Below are positions 187 to 11,286 of a DNA stretch of 16,318 nt, in pieces. The notes beneath the pieces are model-generated. The model was not told the DNA's origin, did no database searches, and was given only the letters and a program-made list of their open reading frames with translations. The stretch is from Nitrospinota bacterium. Its GTDB lineage: Bacteria > Tectomicrobia > Entotheonellia > J063. The stretch is taken from positions 1 through 16,318 of the forward strand of contig RFHZ01000545.1 in assembly GCA_003696125.1 (NCBI GenBank). Direction: 5' to 3'. Position numbers and translations under genes: made by a program. Numbering within the stretch: the stretch's first letter is position 1; each line of letters opens with the position of its first letter.

Positions 187-1530
187 ATGAATTTTCCGAT
201 CCATAAGGTGCCTCCCCAGAACGTCGAGGCCGAACAGTGTGTTCTGGGAGCAATTCTCCAGGAAAATAGCGCCTTACCCAAGGTCATAGAGATCCTGGAC
301 GAAAGACACTTCTACCGCGAAGCACATCGGCGGATCTATGCGGCTATCCTTACCCTCTTCGATAAGAATGAACCGATCGACCTCCTTACCGTGGCCGACT
401 ATCTCCGTAAAAAGAACCAGTTGGAGGCGGTAGGAGGGATGAGTTACCTGGCTTCGCTGGTGGAGAGTGTCCCTACAGCGGCTAATGTTGCCTCTTATGC
501 CCGTATCGTCAAGGAGAAAGCCATCCTGCGCGCCCTGATCAATGTCTCGACCGAAATCATCGCCCAGAGCTTTGCCGAGCCGGAAGATGTGGATGAGCTT
601 TTGGACCGGGCAGAGAGCATCATCTTTGAGATTTCTGAAAACCGGGTACAGCCCGCTTTTGCCAACCTCAGGGCCATCCTCAAAGAGAGTGTCCGGCACC
701 TGGAGGCGCTCTTTGAAAAGCGGGAACTCGTTACCGGGATTCCCACCGGCTTTATCGAGTTTGACCACCTGACCGCCGGTCTCCAGCCGGGAGATCTCAT
801 TATCCTGGCCGCCAGGCCCAGCATGGGAAAGACGAGTTTTGCCCTCAATGTGGCGCAGTATGTGGGGCTGAAGCGGAGAGAGCCGGTGGCGATCTTCAGT
901 CTGGAGATGGCCAAAGAACAACTGGTCATCCGCATGCTCTGTGCCATGGCCCGCATCAACTCCAACAAGCTCCGTACCGGTCACCTCTCCAAGGATGACT
1001 GGCCTATCCTGATTCGAGCAGCCGGAGCCCTGTCCGATGCCCCGATCTTCATCGATGACAGCCCGAACTTGACGGTACTCGACATCCGGGCCAAAGCCCG
1101 GCGCCTGCTGGCCGAACAGGGAAAGCTCTCCCTGGTGATCATCGACTACCTGCAACTGATTCAAGGCCGGAAACGGAGTGAGAGCCGGCAGCAGGAGATC
1201 TCTGAGATTACCCGCTCCCTCAAGGCGCTGGCCAAAGAACTCAAGGTTCCGGTCGTGGCCCTCTCCCAGTTAAGCCGGGCCGTAGAACAGCGGAGCGATC
1301 GCCGTCCCCAGCTCTCTGATCTGCGAGAATCTGGGGCCATCGAACAGGATGGAGACCTCATCGTCTTTATCTATCGGGATGAAGTGTATCACGAAAAGGA
1401 GGACAATAAAGGGATTGCCGAGCTGATCATCGGCAAACAACGAAACGGACCGATCGGGACCATCAAGCTCACCTTCCTCAAAGAGTACGCCAAGTTTGAG
1501 GATATCACCTATCGTACCGAGGCCGGATGA
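187..1530 (+). CDS. dnaB: Replicative DNA helicase DnaB
   Basis: This is the hexameric 5'-3' helicase that unwinds DNA at the replication fork and recruits primase. The 447-residue length is normal and no intein is present. The N-terminal domain starts with the typical PPQNVEAEQCVLGAIL (about residues 8-23). The RecA-like domain has Walker A ARPSMGKTS (residues 209-217), Walker B LVIIDYLQL (Asp320) and the conserved SQLSRAVEQR and SDLRESGAIEQDGD segments. ATG 187 is chosen because it gives the family's usual N-terminus and has AGGA at 176-179 with a 7-base spacer. The in-frame ATG at 148 would add 13 atypical residues (GGCGTGKRQDPG), has no Shine-Dalgarno and follows a hairpin. The stop codon overlaps the next gene's start in ATGA, so translation of mpa is probably coupled to dnaB. 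Confidence 0.97.
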   Translation: MNFPIHKVPPQNVEAEQCVLGAILQENSALPKVIEILDERHFYREAHRRIYAAILTLFDKNEPIDLLTVADYLRKKNQLEAVGGMSYLASLVESVPTAANVASYARIVKEKAILRALINVSTEIIAQSFAEPEDVDELLDRAESIIFEISENRVQPAFANLRAILKESVRHLEALFEKRELVTGIPTGFIEFDHLTAGLQPGDLIILAARPSMGKTSFALNVAQYVGLKRREPVAIFSLEMAKEQLVIRMLCAMARINSNKLRTGHLSKDDWPILIRAAGALSDAPIFIDDSPNLTVLDIRAKARRLLAEQGKLSLVIIDYLQLIQGRKRSESRQQEISEITRSLKALAKELKVPVVALSQLSRAVEQRSDRRPQLSDLRESGAIEQDGDLIVFIYRDEVYHEKEDNKGIAELIIGKQRNGPIGTIKLTFLKEYAKFEDITYRTEAG

Positions 1531-3473
1531 TACGACCAGAGGAGACGGACCGCGTGACAGCACAGCATCGGGAAGTGACGAGCGAGACAGGAGCCTTGCA
1601 GACCATAGAGCAGATCAAACGACTCCTGGGAAGGCCGCAGAATCTCCTGGAAGGGATACAGGCCCTGCTGGCAGAACGGGACAGATTGCGAAGAGCCTTG
1701 ATCGAGGCGAAAGCCCAGATCGAAAGCATGCGCGAGGAGATCAAAAAGCTCAGCGCCCCTCCTCTCCCTTACGGCATCTACGAAGGCCCGAGTAAGCTGC
1801 CCGACCATGTCACCATCAAGGTGGATGGCAAAAAGTACGATGTGCAGATCGCCAACAAGGCCATCAACATCGCCGATCTCAACCGTGGACAGGAACTCCT
1901 CCTCAACGGAGCCTTTAATGTGGTGGATGTCTATGGCTATGAGGAACGGGGGGAGTTGAGCCGGGTACTCGATGTACTGCAGGATGATCGGCTCATCATC
2001 CGCTTCCGGGAAAACGAGGAACGGGTGGTGCACCGGGCCCAGCCCCTGATCAACGAAAAGGTGAAGGTGGGGGACTATGTTCGCTTTGACCCTAAATCCC
2101 AACTGGTCATTGAAGTCCTCCCGCGTCGTGAAGTGGAAGACGTGATCCTGGAGAAGGTGCCGGAAACTCGATACAGCGATATCGGGGGGTTGAGCAGGCA
2201 GATCGAGCAGATCCGCGATGCCATCGAACTCCCCTATCTCCACAAATCGCTCTACACCCTCTACCAACTCCGGCCTCCTAAAGGGGTCCTCCTCTACGGA
2301 CCACCCGGCTGTGGGAAGACCCTCATCGCCAAGGCCGTGGCCCGTGCTCTGGCCCACAAGGTACGCGAGAAGCTGGAGGAGAAGCGGGAGGCCATCGAAC
2401 TCTATCAGATGCTGGTTTCCCCCCAGGGGGACTTCCCCTGGGAGCGTTTCCAGCGCCTGGTACACCGGGTCCATCCGGCTCAGGACCCCTCAACAGCCGC
2501 TTCGGAAGAAGCACCGCCGCCTGTGGAGGCGGAAAGAAGAGAGAAGGCACAGCAGTGGCTGGAAGCGTACCTGGACGAACACGGGGTCGATCTCCACCTC
2601 CTCCCGGTAGAGTTGACCAGGATAGAGAAATTGCTGCAGAGTGGAACCACAGGGCATTTTATCAACATCAAAGGCCCGGAGTTACTCAATAAATACGTGG
2701 GGGAGACGGAGAGGAAGATCCGCGAGATCTTCCAGCGGGCCAAAGAAAAGGCTCAAAACGGCCTTCCCGTGGTCATCTTCTTTGACGAGATGGAGTCGAT
2801 GTTCAAGGTGCGTGGCTCAGGGATCTCCTCTGATGTCGATTCCACCGTGGTTCCTCAACTCCTGACCGAGATCGATGGGGTGGAGGGGATGGATAACGTG
2901 GTGATCATCGGGGCCTCCAACCGGCAGGACCTGCTGGACCCGGCCGTCCTCCGTCCCGGTCGACTCGATATCAAGATCAAGATCGATCGACCCAACCGGG
3001 AGGCGGCCAGGGAGATCTTCGCCAAGTATCTCCTCCCCTCTCTCCCCCTGCATCCCACGGTACGGCAGGAGGGGGAGAGTCGAGAAGAGACGGTCCAGCG
3101 CATGATCACCTGCCTCGTGGACGAGATATATAGCGAAAAACCTGAGAATCGCTGTTTTCAACTGGTCTATGCGGATGGAGAGATCAGAACCCTGTACCGG
3201 AAAGACCTCATCAGCGGGGCCCTGATTGCCGGCATTGTCTCCCGCGCCAAGAAGAAGGCGATCAAGCGCTATCTGGCCACGGGCGAGCAGGGGATAATGT
3301 TTGTTGACCTGCTGGAAGCGGTTGATGAAGAGTACCGGGAGAGTGAGGACCTGCCCAATACCCACGACCCGGATGACTGGGCACGGATGTTTGGAGAACA
3401 GTCCCAGAGGATTCGTGCCATCCACTCACTCTTCATGAGACAGCCGGAGGAGGAGTCGGTTGAGCATTCCTAA
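1527..3473 (+). CDS. mpa: Proteasome-associated AAA+ ATPase (Mpa/ARC)
   Basis: This is the ring unfoldase that recognises Pup-tagged proteins through an N-terminal coiled coil and threads them through its pore. Visible parts: a coiled coil (about residues 26-75), tandem OB folds (about 80-200), then the AAA module starting near YSDIGGL. The module has Walker A GPPGCGKT (258-265), pore loop KYVGETER (Tyr390-Val391-Gly392), Walker B IFFDEMES (Asp420-Glu421) and the LRPGRLD segment. The C-terminal part (NRCFQLVYADG.., SEDLPNTHDPDDWARMFG) aligns with mycobacterial Mpa. Two oddities: about 85-95 extra residues (roughly 280-375) lie between Walker A and the pore loop, and the protein ends ..RQPEEESVEHS, without the Gly-Gln-Tyr-Leu tail used to dock on the 20S core. 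ATG 1527 overlaps the dnaB stop. GTG 1554, with AGGAG at 1540-1544, is a credible alternative start 9 codons later. Confidence 0.95.
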   Translation: MIRPEETDRVTAQHREVTSETGALQTIEQIKRLLGRPQNLLEGIQALLAERDRLRRALIEAKAQIESMREEIKKLSAPPLPYGIYEGPSKLPDHVTIKVDGKKYDVQIANKAINIADLNRGQELLLNGAFNVVDVYGYEERGELSRVLDVLQDDRLIIRFRENEERVVHRAQPLINEKVKVGDYVRFDPKSQLVIEVLPRREVEDVILEKVPETRYSDIGGLSRQIEQIRDAIELPYLHKSLYTLYQLRPPKGVLLYGPPGCGKTLIAKAVARALAHKVREKLEEKREAIELYQMLVSPQGDFPWERFQRLVHRVHPAQDPSTAASEEAPPPVEAERREKAQQWLEAYLDEHGVDLHLLPVELTRIEKLLQSGTTGHFINIKGPELLNKYVGETERKIREIFQRAKEKAQNGLPVVIFFDEMESMFKVRGSGISSDVDSTVVPQLLTEIDGVEGMDNVVIIGASNRQDLLDPAVLRPGRLDIKIKIDRPNREAAREIFAKYLLPSLPLHPTVRQEGESREETVQRMITCLVDEIYSEKPENRCFQLVYADGEIRTLYRKDLISGALIAGIVSRAKKKAIKRYLATGEQGIMFVDLLEAVDEEYRESEDLPNTHDPDDWARMFGEQSQRIRAIHSLFMRQPEEESVEHS

Positions 3474-4995
3474 GATTGTGGGGTTGGAACAGGAATACGC
3501 CATCATGGTGCGACAGCACCGGAGAATCGAACCGCTCCTCAGTCCCTCGCAAGCCTCTCTCCTCCTGGTCGGCCAGGCGCCAGAGGCAAACCACCTGCTT
3601 TGGGATTACGGGGAAGAGTTTCCCCTACGAGATGCCCTGCAGGTGGATCCCACTCCTCCTGTTACTCCCCCCTCGGACATGGAGAACCGCCTGATCAACA
3701 GGCTTCTCCCCAATGGAGCCCGTCTCTATGTCGATCACGCCCATCCAGAATTCTCCACGCCCGAATGCCTGACCGCGGCAGAGGTCGTTACCTTTGACCA
3801 GGTAGGTGAGATCCTGTTGCAGCAGTGCTGTGCGCAGGGAAACCGCCAGCTTCGCGGGCAAGAGATGGCCCTGTTCAAGAATAACAGCGACCACCAGGGG
3901 AACGCGTACGGGTGTCATGAGAACTACCTCCTGGAGGCGCAGACCTATTCCCAGCTCTTCCTGGGACGAGGGGAAAGGGAATTGCTCCCCTTCCTCGTCT
4001 CCCGCCAGATCTACTGCGGTGCCGGAAAGGTGGGGGTAGAGGAGGAGACCGGCGGCGTTCCGGTCCCGTACCAGATCTCCCAGCGGGCCGATTTCTTCAC
4101 CACCCTCTACAGTGTAAGGACAACCTCGGCCCGACCCCTGATCAACACGCGTGACGAGCCCCATGCCGACCGTCGTCGTTTTCGCCGGCTTCATCTCATC
4201 CTGGGTGATGCAAACATGAGTGCGCATGCCACCTACCTGAAGGTGGGGACAACCCAGATCGTGCTGCGGATGCTGGAAGATCAGGCCATCAACAGAGATC
4301 TCAGCCTGGAAGACCCGGTAACGGCTTTGAAGATGATCTCCCGTGATCCGAGCTGTCGCGTAACGGTACGGCTGCGGGATGGAAGACGCCTGCGCGCCGT
4401 CGAGATCCAGGAAGCGTACCTCGAGATGGCCCATCGCTACTTTGCCGCCCATCCCCCCAGCCCGGAAGAGGCCGATCTGCTCCGGCGCTGGACAACGGTG
4501 GTCGAGCAGTTGAAGACCGATCCGATGCTTCTCCGGCGCCAGATCGACTGGGTGATTAAGTGGTGGCTCCTGGAATGGCAGAGTAAAGGGAAAGGGATTG
4601 ACCCCCATTCCCCCCGTCTCCGGCAGCTCGATATCCAGTATCATAACATCGACCGGCAGAAGGGGTTGTACCATCTCCTGGAACGAGAGGGCCAGGTCGA
4701 TCCCTTCTCCCCCAGTCCTGAGGCGTTAGAACCGTACCTTCACACCCCTCCGCCCCAGAGCCGGGCTTATCTGCGGAGCCAGTGCCTGATCCGCTATGGA
4801 GAGCAGATAGAGCGGATGAGTTGGGGAGGATTCTGGTTCCGCTCTGCTGCCGGTCCCTGCTATTGTGCGCTTCCCGATCCGAGACGGGGGACACAGGAGG
4901 AGTGTGCAGCCTTGCTCCAGCAATCCCCCCGTCTGGAAACCCTCCTGGACGAACTGGGCCAGGAGATCGCCTCTCCGAAGCAGGCTAGGAGATAA
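3460..4995 (+). CDS. dop: Depupylase / Pup deamidase Dop
   Basis: Dop is a glutamine-synthetase-fold, ATP-dependent enzyme that removes Pup from conjugates and, in other species, deamidates a C-terminal Gln of Pup. The protein has 511 residues, close to the usual ~500. Dop-specific marks are the N-terminal GLEQEYAI, a long loop containing WDYGEEFPLRDALQVD (the 'Dop loop'; mycobacterial Dop has WDYEVESPLRDARGFD) and NGARLYVDHAHPEFSTPE with catalytic Asp92. Further conserved segments are KNNSDHQGNAYGCHENYLLE, INTRDEPHAD and RRLHLILGDANMS. The start is TTG 3460, because the conserved N-terminus leaves no room for a later start and GGAGGAGGAG lies at 3446-3455. It overlaps the end of mpa by 14 bases. 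Since the Pup here already ends in Glu, this Dop should need only depupylase activity (inference). Confidence 0.95.
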   Translation: MSIPKIVGLEQEYAIMVRQHRRIEPLLSPSQASLLLVGQAPEANHLLWDYGEEFPLRDALQVDPTPPVTPPSDMENRLINRLLPNGARLYVDHAHPEFSTPECLTAAEVVTFDQVGEILLQQCCAQGNRQLRGQEMALFKNNSDHQGNAYGCHENYLLEAQTYSQLFLGRGERELLPFLVSRQIYCGAGKVGVEEETGGVPVPYQISQRADFFTTLYSVRTTSARPLINTRDEPHADRRRFRRLHLILGDANMSAHATYLKVGTTQIVLRMLEDQAINRDLSLEDPVTALKMISRDPSCRVTVRLRDGRRLRAVEIQEAYLEMAHRYFAAHPPSPEEADLLRRWTTVVEQLKTDPMLLRRQIDWVIKWWLLEWQSKGKGIDPHSPRLRQLDIQYHNIDRQKGLYHLLEREGQVDPFSPSPEALEPYLHTPPPQSRAYLRSQCLIRYGEQIERMSWGGFWFRSAAGPCYCALPDPRRGTQEECAALLQQSPRLETLLDELGQEIASPKQARR

Positions 4996-5006
4996 AGGAG
5001 GAAAAG

Positions 5007-5198
5007 ATGCGGCAAGATCAGATACACCCAGAGAAAAGCCGGGAAGAGGAGGGTACCCGGCAGGCTGATCCGGAGATTTCCCGGCAGGGCGAGGCGATGC
5101 TTACCGACCTGGCAGCGCTGGATGCCATGATCGACGCGGTTCTGGAAGAGGATGCAGAGCAATTTGTCGAGCAGTTTCGCCAAAAAGGGGGAGAGTGA
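5007..5198 (+). CDS. pup: Pup-like protein modifier (UBact type), Glu-ended
   Basis: This is a small, highly charged, probably disordered modifier of 63 residues. The C-terminal half, LAALDAMIDAVLEEDAEQFV followed by EQFRQKGGE, matches the conserved Pup helix and tail (mycobacterial Pup ends ..DVLEENAEDFVRAYVQKGGQ). The last residue is Glu, so PafA could couple its gamma-carboxylate to substrate lysines directly, without deamidation by Dop. The N-terminal half (RQDQIHPEKSREEEGTRQ..) is polar, as in other Pup proteins, where it helps engage the ATPase. AAGGAGG at 4995-5001 sits 5 bases before the ATG, the strongest ribosome site in the cassette, as expected for an abundant tag. dop lies 11 bases upstream and pafA begins at or just after this stop. 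Position between dop and pafA makes the assignment firm. Confidence 0.95.
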   Translation: MRQDQIHPEKSREEEGTRQADPEISRQGEAMLTDLAALDAMIDAVLEEDAEQFVEQFRQKGGE

Positions 5199-5209
5199 GC
5201 GGAAAAGAG

Positions 5210-6610
5210 ATGCGCGAGCGGATTTACGGCACAGAAACGGAATATGCCTTCCAGTACTTCACGACCCCTGCGGAGCCGGCTCGTGTGTTCCGGGGAACAG
5301 AGATCTATCTCTTCTACCTCTTCCGCCGGGCCCTGGAGGCGCAGGGATACCGGAAGCTGTACGAGGATAAGTACAACAACTTCAGCATCTTCCTGGCCAA
5401 CGGGGCCCGACTCTATGTCGACCGGGGAGGACACCCGGAATACGCCACGGCCGAGTGTCGCACCTGGCGAGATGCCCTGGTGCAGGAGAAGGCGGGTGAG
5501 CGGATCATAGCGGAATTGTGTCCTTTTATCGAGAGAGAGCTACAGACCATCGGGTACCGGGGAAACCTCTTGATCGCCAAGAACAACGTGGATGGTGCCG
5601 GGAGCACCTATGGCTCCCATGAGAACTACCTGGTGGAGCGGCGCGATTCAGAAGAGAGTGCCGCCTTCTTTGCCCGCCTGGCCCGCCATCTCGTCCCCTT
5701 TCTCGTCACCCGCCAGATCTTCTGCGGGAGCGGGAAGGTCGATCCGGCCGTAGGATACCAGATCTCCCAGCGCGCAGACTACATCTCGACCCTCTTCTCG
5801 GCCAACACAACGACCAAGGGGATCATCAACACCAAGGAAGAATCACTGGCGCATGAGCAGCGCTTCCGACGGCTTCATCTGATCCTGGGGGATTCCAACA
5901 TGTCCGACTTCTCTCTCGCCTTGAAGCTGGGGACGACCGGGATCGTGTTGCGCCTGATGGAAGACGAGGCGCTCAAACCCGGCTTGGAGTTAGAAGACCC
6001 CCTCCTGGCCCTGCGGGTCATTTCCCGTGACCCGAGTTGCCAGAGCCGGGTCCGGTTACGAGGGGGGAGAGCCTGGACAGCGATCGAGATCCAGGAACAC
6101 TATCTGGAGGCGGCGCATCGCTATTATGCTACCAGAGAGCCCGATCCCCTGGAAGCGGAGATCTTACGACACTGGGAGGAGACGCTGCGTCTCCTGGCCG
6201 AAGACCCGTGGCAGTTACATCGCCGAATCGATTGGGTGATCAAACGATGGCTCCTGGAGCGACAACGGCAGCGGGAAGGTTTGGCCTGGCCGGCACCGCA
6301 GCTACGACAACTGGACATCAAATACCATGCCATCTACCCTCAGGGGCTCTTTGCCCGCCTGGAACAGGGCGGATGGGTGGACCGATGGGTGGAGGAGGAA
6401 GAGATCGAGCAGGCCAAGTACCAGCCTCCCGCCGATACGCGGGCCCGGGTACGCCACGACTTTATCAACGCGGTACTGGACAACAGGCTTGAGGGGACAG
6501 CGACCTGGGTCACCCTGTGCTGGGGACCGGAGTTGCGTCATTCCGTCGAGCTTTGGGATCCTTTTATGCCATTTAACCAGGCCGTTGCCAACATCGGAAA
6601 ACAGCAGTAA
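5210..6610 (+). CDS. pafA: Pup--protein ligase PafA
   Basis: PafA is the glutamine-synthetase-fold ligase that phosphorylates the C-terminal Glu of Pup and joins it to a substrate lysine. It has 466 residues, slightly longer than the mycobacterial ~452. Hallmarks are RIYGTETEYAF (ATP/Mg glutamates), NGARLYVDRGGHPEYATAE with catalytic Asp71, KNNVDGAGSTYGSHENYL, LVTRQIFCGSGKV, RRLHLILGDSNMSD and, near the end, TRARVRHDFINAV. It lacks the Dop loop, which separates it from the upstream paralogue. One oddity: the usual INTRDEPHAD segment reads INTKEESLAHEQ (from residue 206). ATG 5210 gives exactly the mycobacterial start spacing (MxxRIxG). GTG 5195, which overlaps the pup stop as GTGA, would add five residues and is a real alternative. 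No 20S subunit genes separate it from pup. Confidence 0.95.
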   Translation: MRERIYGTETEYAFQYFTTPAEPARVFRGTEIYLFYLFRRALEAQGYRKLYEDKYNNFSIFLANGARLYVDRGGHPEYATAECRTWRDALVQEKAGERIIAELCPFIERELQTIGYRGNLLIAKNNVDGAGSTYGSHENYLVERRDSEESAAFFARLARHLVPFLVTRQIFCGSGKVDPAVGYQISQRADYISTLFSANTTTKGIINTKEESLAHEQRFRRLHLILGDSNMSDFSLALKLGTTGIVLRLMEDEALKPGLELEDPLLALRVISRDPSCQSRVRLRGGRAWTAIEIQEHYLEAAHRYYATREPDPLEAEILRHWEETLRLLAEDPWQLHRRIDWVIKRWLLERQRQREGLAWPAPQLRQLDIKYHAIYPQGLFARLEQGGWVDRWVEEEEIEQAKYQPPADTRARVRHDFINAVLDNRLEGTATWVTLCWGPELRHSVELWDPFMPFNQAVANIGKQQ

Positions 6611-6622
6611 AGGAGAGAGCGC

Positions 6623-6985
6623 ATGATCGATCTTGCCTATGCAGGGGCTCAGGGTCAGGCCGCCGGGGGAGCGGGGTTAATCAGCTTCATCCCCCTGATC
6701 ACGGTCTTTGTGATCTTCTATTTCCTCCTGATCCGGCCCCAGGTGAAACGCCAGAAAGAGCACAAACGGATGCTGGATAACCTGAAACGAGGTGATCGCG
6801 TGGTCACCAGTGGTGGGATCTATGGTACCATCACCAAGATTCGCAATGAGGTTGTGCATCTGGAAGTAGCCGAGCAGGTACGGATCCGGGTGCAGAAATC
6901 GGCGATTGCCAGCGTGGTGAAAGGAGGGGATAAGGTATCGACAGAACAAGAGACGGAAGAAGTCGAAGATCAAAAGAAGAACTGA
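6623..6985 (+). CDS. yajC: Preprotein translocase accessory subunit YajC
   Basis: YajC is a small single-pass inner-membrane protein that associates with SecDF and the SecYEG channel. The 120 residues show an N-terminal membrane segment (about 18-37, ISFIPLITVFVIFYFLLI) followed by the diagnostic RPQVKRQKEHKRMLDNLKRGDRVVTSGG core and a charged C-terminal tail rich in Glu and Lys. AGGAGAG at 6611-6617 precedes the ATG, and the gap to pafA is only 12 bases. The gene's last ~50 bases overlap the upstream open frame of the next gene. Order yajC-(ATPase)-secD-secF is the usual yajC-secDF cluster with one extra gene inserted. Confidence 0.95.
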   Translation: MIDLAYAGAQGQAAGGAGLISFIPLITVFVIFYFLLIRPQVKRQKEHKRMLDNLKRGDRVVTSGGIYGTITKIRNEVVHLEVAEQVRIRVQKSAIASVVKGGDKVSTEQETEEVEDQKKN

Positions 6986-8685: not shown

Positions 8686-8765
8686 AAGGGACCGGGGAGA
8701 AGCGGCCTTCCCTCTCCTCCCCGTCTCCGGGTGAACAGCGGAAGGTGAAGGAAAAGGAGAGAGGC

Positions 8766-10316
8766 GTGAGAAAGGATCTACAGTGGAAAACAGCCCTGAT
8801 TGTCATCGTAATAGGGGTGGCGGTCTGGTATAATTTCCCCCCTGGCAAGAACTTAAACCTCGGACTCGATTTGCAGGGCGGGGTACATCTCCTCCTGGAG
8901 GTGGAGGCGGATAAGGTGGTAGAAAGCGCCCTGGAACGGTATCAGTTTGAGCTGGAGAGCGCGTTCAAGGAGGAAAAACTCCCGCTCCAGGCTGTCCGCA
9001 TAGAAGGGGGAAATACCAACCGGTTGATCCTCCAGTTCACCGAGAAGGTGGATCCGGCCAAGGTGGACGAGGTGCTCGCCTCCTATCCACTGCTGAGACG
9101 GGTATCCAGTCAGGATAACCGGTTTGTCTACCAGATCGATTCCCAGCGGGTGGAGGAGATGAAATCCAAGGCGGTCGAACAGGCCCTGGAAACGATCCGC
9201 AACCGGGTGGACCAGTTCGGTGTGGCCGAGCCGACCATCCAGCGCAAGGGGGAACGGGGGATCATCGTCGAGCTCCCCGGCATCAAAGATACGGATCGCG
9301 CCATCCAGTTGATCGGGAAGACGGCCCGGCTCGAATTCCGGCTGGTCGATGATGAGAACAGCCTGGAAGAAGCGCTTAAAGGCAAGGTCCCGGAAGGGGA
9401 TGAGATCCTCTATCGCCGGGTGGTGGACAAGGAGACGAGGACGGTAAGCAAAGAGCCGTTCCTCTTGAAAAAACAGGTGCTGTTAACCGGTGATGCGCTG
9501 ACCGATGCCCGGATGCAGATCGGCTCTCGCTTCAACGAGCCGTACGTCTCTCTCTCCTTTGATAAGGAAGGAGCCAAGCTCTTTGAACGCATCACGGCGG
9601 AAAATGTGGGAAAGCGACTGGCCATTGTCCTGGATAACACGGTCTACTCTGCCCCGGTGATTCGGGAACGGATCGGAGGAGGACGGGCCCAGATCACCGG
9701 GCTCTTTACCATCGAGGAGGCACGAGACCTGGCCATCGTGCTGCGGGCCGGCGCCCTTCCTGCCCCGGTGCGTATCGAGGAGAATCGAACCGTGGGTCCT
9801 TCCCTGGGAGCAGACTCGATCCGGCAGGGGATCACGGCCATCCTGGTGGGAGGGATTCTGGTGCTCATCTTCATGATCATTTACTACCGTCTTTCTGGCG
9901 TCATCGCCGATGTGGCCCTCTTCCTCAACCTGGTTCTCCTGACCGGTGCCCTGGCCTACTTCCATGCCACCCTGACCCTCCCCGGGATTGCGGGAATCCT
10001 CCTCACCATCGGTATGGCGGTGGATGCCAACGTCTTGATCTTTGAACGGATCCGGGAGGAGTTGCGGGTAGGAAAAACGATACGTGCCGCGGTGGATGCC
10101 GGGTTTTCCAAGGCTTTTCTTACCATTGTCGATGCCAACGTGACCACGGTCATCGCCGCCCTGGTCCTCTTTCAGTTCGGCACCGGACCGGTCAAGGGGT
10201 TTGCCGTTACCCTCTCCCTGGGTATTGCGGCCTCTATGTTCACCGCGGTCTTTGTCTCGCGGGTGATCTTTGAGCATATCCTGAGCCGACGCAAGGTCAG
10301 CCAGTTGAGTATCTAG
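8766..10316 (+). CDS. secD: Protein translocase subunit SecD
   Basis: SecD works with SecF to draw exported proteins out of the SecYEG channel using the proton gradient. The protein has 516 residues: one N-terminal membrane helix (about 8-24), the conserved NLGLDLQGGVHLLLEV, a large periplasmic P1 region containing ETIRNRVDQFGVAEPTIQRK, then five C-terminal membrane helices with GMAVDANVLIFERIREEL carrying the conserved Asp. GTG 8766 is preferred because AAGGAG (8754-8759) lies 6 bases before it. GTG 8745, seven codons upstream, has no usable ribosome site but remains in frame. The spacer after the ATPase gene (8686-8765) is pyrimidine-rich and holds no clear promoter, so it is probably read from upstream. 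Confidence 0.95.
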   Translation: MRKDLQWKTALIVIVIGVAVWYNFPPGKNLNLGLDLQGGVHLLLEVEADKVVESALERYQFELESAFKEEKLPLQAVRIEGGNTNRLILQFTEKVDPAKVDEVLASYPLLRRVSSQDNRFVYQIDSQRVEEMKSKAVEQALETIRNRVDQFGVAEPTIQRKGERGIIVELPGIKDTDRAIQLIGKTARLEFRLVDDENSLEEALKGKVPEGDEILYRRVVDKETRTVSKEPFLLKKQVLLTGDALTDARMQIGSRFNEPYVSLSFDKEGAKLFERITAENVGKRLAIVLDNTVYSAPVIRERIGGGRAQITGLFTIEEARDLAIVLRAGALPAPVRIEENRTVGPSLGADSIRQGITAILVGGILVLIFMIIYYRLSGVIADVALFLNLVLLTGALAYFHATLTLPGIAGILLTIGMAVDANVLIFERIREELRVGKTIRAAVDAGFSKAFLTIVDANVTTVIAALVLFQFGTGPVKGFAVTLSLGIAASMFTAVFVSRVIFEHILSRRKVSQLSI

Positions 10317-10362: not shown

Positions 10363-11286
10363 ATGGAACTGATCAAGCCGGGAACAAATTTCGATTTTGT
10401 AGGGAAGATGAGGAAATGCCTCCTCGCTTCCGGAATACTGATTCTCCTCTCCCTCCTGCTCCTGCTGGTGAAGGGACCCAACTATGGGATCGACTTTGCC
10501 GGGGGAACGCTGCTCGAGTTCCGCTTCCCCCGTCCTCTTCCCATCGAGCAGATTCGACAGGCGCTGCAGAAGATCGGCCTGGGCAAGAGCATCATCCAGG
10601 CGGCAGGCGAGGGGAGAGACATCCTCATCCGGGTTCAGGAGACCGATCAGCCGTTGCAGGAGTTGCGTCATCAGATCCAGGAGACCTTGAAAAGCGAACT
10701 CAAGGAAGAGTTTGAGGTGCTGCGGGTGGACCAGGTGGGTCCCAAAGCCGGCACTGCGCTGCGACGGCAGGCCCTGCTGGCGCTCATCTATGCCACCATC
10801 GGCGTCCTCATCTATATCTCCTGGCGCTTCGAGTTTCGCTTTGGGATCGCCGCGGTCCTGGCTCTGGTGCACGACGTGATCATTACGGTCGGCATATTCA
10901 CCGCCTTGAACAAGGAATTTACCCTCACCGTCATCGCCGCCCTGCTCACCATTGCCGGGTACTCCCTGAATGATACCATTGTCGTCTTCGACCGCATCCG
11001 GGAAAACCTTCGCTTCCGGAAACGTGAGGTGTATGCGGGGGTGATCAACAGGAGCATCAACGAGACCTTGAGTCGAACGATCCTGACCTCTGGCACAACC
11101 TTACTGGTGGTTCTGGCCCTCTTCTTCTTAGGAGGACCGGTGATCCATGACTTTGCCTTTGTCTTGCTGGTGGGGATCATCACCGGTACCTACTCTTCCA
11201 TCTTTGTGGCCAGTCCCATCCTGGTCTTCTGGCAGGTCGATGTCAAAACCAAACTCAAACCGCTGATCACGACTGGAAAACGGTAA
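10363..11286 (+). CDS. secF: Protein translocase subunit SecF
   Basis: This is the partner of SecD in the proton-driven secretion motor. It has 307 residues: membrane helix 1 (about 22-38), the SecF signature YGIDFAGGTLLEFRFP, a short periplasmic domain, and five further membrane helices with NDTIVVFDRIRENLRFRK, the counterpart of the SecD cytoplasmic motif. CGGAGG at 10352-10357 precedes the ATG. The 46 bases between secD and secF show no terminator. This is the last gene of the long plus-strand run; no clear intrinsic terminator follows in the 50 bases after the stop. Confidence 0.95.
   Translation: MELIKPGTNFDFVGKMRKCLLASGILILLSLLLLLVKGPNYGIDFAGGTLLEFRFPRPLPIEQIRQALQKIGLGKSIIQAAGEGRDILIRVQETDQPLQELRHQIQETLKSELKEEFEVLRVDQVGPKAGTALRRQALLALIYATIGVLIYISWRFEFRFGIAAVLALVHDVIITVGIFTALNKEFTLTVIAALLTIAGYSLNDTIVVFDRIRENLRFRKREVYAGVINRSINETLSRTILTSGTTLLVVLALFFLGGPVIHDFAFVLLVGIITGTYSSIFVASPILVFWQVDVKTKLKPLITTGKR

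Follow-up and report, generated by a model that had tools for sequence, protein, structure and literature searches.

A probable second Pup system, uncoupled from the 20S proteasome, beside a canonical Pup-20S cluster in a Nitrospinota bin

The window, that is, the whole 16,318-nucleotide stretch of DNA analyzed here, is contig C895 of a 4.18-Mb bin comprising 990 contigs (94.8% complete and 8.0% contaminated). It carries an mpa-dop-pup-pafA cluster in which the Mpa-like ATPase lacks a 20S-docking tail, and a canonical Pup-20S cluster is present elsewhere in the bin, on contig C873. On balance, we think that the Pup system of the window is a second one, uncoupled from the proteasome, which exists beside the canonical system in one organism.

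Results

The tagging genes occupy positions 1527 to 6610 of the + strand, where the first-pass annotation had described a complete Pup-ligase system, and both the open reading frames and the family matches agreed with that description. The genes run head to tail in the order dnaB, mpa, dop, pup, pafA, and yajC. The upstream flank is dnaB (148 to 1530), the stop codon of which overlaps the ATG of mpa (ATGA). The mpa gene (1527 to 3473) encodes an Mpa/ARC-like AAA ATPase of 648 amino acids with a predicted N-terminal coiled coil, tandem OB domains, and an AAA domain (TIGR03689). A gene for a Dop-like depupylase (3460 to 4995) begins with a TTG codon that overlaps mpa, and its product contains the Dop-loop WDYGEEFPLRDA and the motif LYVDHAHPE. 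The pup gene (5007 to 5198; 63 amino acids; PF05639) encodes its QKGGE terminus directly, and its stop codon shares GTGA with the GTG start of a gene for a PafA-like Pup ligase (5195 to 6610), in which LYVDRGGHPE is present. Downstream on the same strand, yajC (6623 to 6985) starts 12 bases 3' of pafA and is followed by genes for an ABC-class ATPase (PF09818; 7123 to 8685), SecD (8745 to 10316), and SecF (10363 to 11286). Owing to the overlaps and close spacing from dnaB through yajC, the mpa-dop-pup-pafA set looks like one transcription unit. Since the pup stop overlaps the pafA start, prcBA cannot fit between the two genes, as had been pointed out, and the prcB and prcA genes of a canonical Pup-proteasome locus are absent from the window cluster. 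The PF09818 gene has the same placement between yajC and secD in two other genomes (G035 and G036) and is not found at this position in the phylum relatives or in G009.

All four products were assigned to their families by profile scans, and Mpa, Dop, and PafA were also compared with solved structures. The window Mpa scored 638 bits against TIGR03689 (equivalog cutoff of 505, NCBIfam scan), and it has the architecture of Mpa/ARC, with OB domains detected by the family scan, the AAA domain, and a predicted helix at residues 37 to 75 for the coiled coil. It retains the GPPGCGKT, NKYVG, and FFDEME motifs, and its nearest solved structures are Mycobacterium tuberculosis Mpa chains (E value of 3e-152). 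Pup scored 41.3 bits against PF05639 (cutoff of 27) and 37.1 bits against TIGR03687, slightly below the cutoff of 41.45. PF03136 scores were 486 bits for Dop and 448 bits for PafA; Dop matched the Dop model better than the PafA model (439 versus 349 bits), and PafA matched the PafA model better than the Dop model (395 versus 347 bits). Both members of this pair are below the NCBIfam equivalog cutoffs and are thus divergent. The nearest solved structures to Dop are those of Dop itself (5LRT and 4B0R; E value of 1e-112), and the closest solved relatives of PafA are also among the Dop/PafA structures. A comparison with UBact-type clusters had been suggested; however, the window modifier ends in QKGGE, the GG-E/Q terminus of pupylation modifiers, and not in the UBact terminus R/KQR[T/S]G[E/Q], so the system is Pup and not UBact.

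We further examined the C terminus of Mpa (3435 to 3473, + strand), which is short, reads MRQPEEESVEHS up to the stop codon, and has no GQYL docking motif. In the alignment, the window Mpa stops with RQPEEESVEHS where other Mpa proteins have a linker and GQYL, confirming the earlier reading of this end. A GQYL- or HbYX-like docking motif at the C terminus was missing in all frames across the 3' end of the gene. A sequencing error that masks a QYL tail was considered and rejected, because no frame encodes such a tail; frame 1 at this place is the start of Dop. Binding of Mpa to the 20S core is mediated by the C-terminal GQYL motif (PMC8755798), and the window ATPase, for its part, most likely does not form this complex.

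Tail loss tracks prcBA loss among the sampled clusters. All Mpa proteins accompanied by the proteasome genes for their system end in Y-L/M if they are of the Pup type and in [I/V/A]-I if they are of the UBact type, whereas those of clusters without prcBA (the window, L037, L038, G102, and the second cluster of G295) end in neither motif in five of five cases. This comparison, which the first-pass annotation had proposed, holds for Pup-type and UBact-type tails, and supports its view that the two traits agree in pointing to an ATPase uncoupled from the 20S core.

Dop/PafA homologues were found in 31 of the 386 genomes surveyed. Three of these (G102, G324, and G035) have Pup clusters without prcBA and a single PF00227 gene each, which reads as HslV, as judged from the sequence. 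G295 (99% complete and 1% contaminated) has prcBA in a UBact-type cluster and, apart from this, a Pup cluster that lacks prcBA; the latter lies on its contig C18 (L160:853-6489) and encodes an Mpa without a docking tail. Since G295 independently combines 20S-linked and 20S-less clusters, the paired arrangement in our bin is biologically plausible. The sampled genomes with UBact-type modifiers, all with the terminus given above, carry prcBA.

Several other arrangements were seen in the survey. G188, G320, and G043 (L152-L158), which have low contamination, each possess Pup and UBact-type clusters with two proteasome gene sets; in G188, the UBact-type prcBA sits on contig C9 and not in the G188b cluster. 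In the Chloroflexota locus L038, a modifier candidate between dop and pafA (L038:9500-9800) apparently ends in FRQQSGQ, not in GGE or GGQ. A lone GQYL-tailed Mpa (L036:9788-11548) occurs on a contig labelled Saccharibacteria, which is possibly misbinned; dop and pafA are absent within 10 kb, and the 0.9-Mb genome has no PF00227 match. G003 encodes a fourth PF00227 protein (contig C3:154524-155048, in a 276-codon frame) beside PrcB, PrcA, and an HslV-sized one.

A family search of the bin for 20S subunits, as the first-pass annotation had recommended, identified adjacent prcB and prcA genes on contig C873 and no HslV. The gene order there is mpa (partial, with GQYL)-dop-pup (QRGGE)-prcB-prcA-pafA. 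The earlier statement that 20S proteasome genes are missing is therefore right for the window cluster and wrong for the bin, and the idea of an organism with pupylation and no 20S core, as in Corynebacterium, is contradicted, provided that C873 and the window come from one organism. Because the bin also contains a canonical Pup-20S cluster, a proteasome-less organism is an improbable source of the window. Besides, each of the four other genomes of the phylum that we examined has one canonical cluster, and none has a second system of the window type. The C873 cluster groups with the clusters of these phylum relatives in a concatenated tree (SH-aLRT of 99), and so it looks vertically inherited.

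Whether the window contig belongs to the bin was assessed by composition and by marker genes. Its tetranucleotide profile correlates at 0.95 with those of other contigs in the bin (0.93 for C873) and at about 0.5 to 0.7 with most other genomes. The window contig holds the sole copies of SecD and DnaB found in the bin. Were it foreign, the real host would have to be missing both of them although the bin is 95% complete. PdhB of the window is 67 to 72% identical to its class relatives versus 49 to 53% to outgroups. SecD is marginally nearer other phyla (G009) than the class relatives, and RecJ on another contig of the bin also discriminates the class from outgroups poorly. The bin holds a second partial Fmt (86%) on contig C106, implying some contamination by a congener. 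A binning artifact, in which the window and C873 would have their origins in two related organisms, with the owner of the window truly without a 20S core, accords with the contamination of 8%, the second Fmt, the slight leaning of SecD, and the fact that no relative carries both clusters. It is nevertheless unlikely in view of the sole SecD and DnaB, the matching composition, and PdhB, which sides with a class whose other examined members all have a canonical 20S cluster. As the bin is fragmented and contaminated, with a duplicated partial Fmt, we infer rather than observe that the clusters co-occur in one cell; the window contig and C873 very probably come from one organism.

Based on phylogenetic analysis of Mpa, computed with insert columns excluded, the window Mpa groups with those of G352, L037, and L038 (bootstrap of 90 and SH-aLRT of 93). 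Its placement with the canonical Mpa proteins of its own phylum was rejected (p-AU of 1.6e-14), which rules out, for Mpa, a recent duplication of the canonical cluster as the origin of the window cluster. The concatenated tree pairs the window with G352 (SH-aLRT of 89) and places L037 and L038 elsewhere, on long branches. Thus, the window probably represents a second, 20S-uncoupled Pup system and not a copy of the C873 cluster. The window sequences are also on a long branch in this tree, as would be expected of a decaying remnant that had lost prcBA, the tail, and its function; however, such a state is very improbable for four intact reading frames with overlapping or closely spaced ends, in which the Walker, pore-loop, and Dop/PafA active-site motifs are retained.

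The AAA domain of the window Mpa contains an insert (2364 to 2645, + strand; about 90 residues, helical) that separates the Walker A helix from pore loop 1. The distance from Walker A to GETE is 126 residues in the window, 118 in L037 and L038, 190 in G352, and 39 to 42 in the other Mpa proteins, and among those in which this distance was measurable, only the window, G352, and the two Chloroflexota, L037 and L038, carry the insert. Its ends can be aligned at both sides in all four carriers (e.g., YLDEHGVDLHLLPVELTRI, TLRNHNVEIDNLDAELKRT, and YLEHHRVDLRTLDKELHTI). Residues 264 to 297, 305 to 315, 334 to 351, and 356 to 371 are predicted to be helical with moderate confidence by an AlphaFold2 model built with four sequences (mean pLDDT of 67). 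G352 carries the insert and yet retains prcBA and an RYL tail, and the 20S-less state of the window is therefore best read as a loss within the insert clade. The insert is a lineage trait and perhaps an element that binds a partner or substrate.

Two other fates of tagged proteins bear on this ATPase. The window Mpa might deliver them to a different protease via the insert or the altered tail, and the conservation of the insert across distant lineages, including two genomes with no PF00227 match (L037 and L038), would fit such a role. This is quite improbable, since the cluster contains no protease gene, HslV was not found in the bin, and the insert is equally present in G352, where the 20S genes and tail persist and where it can thus be no replacement for the tail. 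Alternatively, the window Mpa might still serve the C873 20S core through mixed hexamers with the GQYL-Mpa or through other contacts: the bin encodes such a core, both Pups share the C-terminal pattern, and beta-hairpin loops make secondary contacts besides GQYL in the Mpa-20S structure (PMC8755798). We regard this as hardly likely, because the penultimate-tyrosine motif (GQYL) is the main binding determinant (PMC8755798), and because the two Mpa proteins are 56% identical over their shared part and differ by the large insert, which makes mixed rings less likely.

Discussion

We consider a second Pup system that works without handover to a 20S core to be the more probable account of the window, and its course might be as follows. 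PafA would ligate Pup, already Glu terminated, onto lysines, and Dop would take it off again. The Mpa-like hexamer would capture Pup via its coiled coil and unfold or disassemble the tagged protein; with its docking tail gone, it would not hand that protein over to the 20S core, a task that would be left to the canonical Mpa. Such a mode has been reported for Corynebacterium glutamicum, in which ARC takes apart pupylated ferritin with no 20S core (PMC12288473). More tentatively, there might be two parallel Pup pathways, one degradative with the GQYL-Mpa and 20S core and the other nondegradative with the insert-bearing Mpa, and the insert clade (this phylum, G352, and Chloroflexota) might be a distinct unfoldase branch, most sampled members of which are 20S independent.

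According to a 2025 review (PMC12288473), nondegradative roles of pupylation in 20S-bearing bacteria are undetermined. A cell with both 20S-linked and 20S-less Pup systems, if true, would split degradative and nondegradative roles into two loci, so that the question would be testable by comparing two ATPases and two pupylomes.

Taken separately, tail loss and prcBA-less Pup clusters are already known. The prcBA genes have been lost from the locus in about half of the sequenced actinobacteria (PMC6466877). In corynebacteria, pup is immediately 5' of pafA and the ATPase gene is retained, and where an organism has no proteasome genes, its ATPase is devoid of the docking motif, a coupling of prcBA loss and tail loss previously described for actinobacteria (PMC3511204, a 2012 review). 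The window system is thus probably an offshoot of a known theme. Two features appear to be new, namely, the clade of ATPases with the insert and the likely coexistence of 20S-linked and 20S-less Pup systems in one bin; we found no description of either in the literature searched, mostly outside subscription journals.

The window resembles the proteasome-less ARC-Dop-Pup-PafA locus of actinobacteria in having pup before pafA, a retained ATPase, and no docking motif, but it is outside the actinobacterial setting, has a large AAA insert, and shares its bin with a 20S-linked cluster. It has the four tagging genes of the canonical mpa-dop-pup-prcB-prcA-pafA locus in the same order, but it lacks prcBA and GQYL, bears the Mpa insert, and is phylogenetically apart from C873. 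UBact systems likewise comprise a modifier, Dop/PafA-like enzymes, and an Mpa-like ATPase, but their modifiers end in R/KQR[T/S]G[E/Q], whereas that of the window is a GGE Pup. Leptospirillum ferrooxidans has two whole, divergent pupylation systems, L1 and L2, in one genome (PMC3511204), as does our bin, but the L. ferrooxidans copies have an identical gene context, whereas in our bin one system is with and the other without 20S genes.
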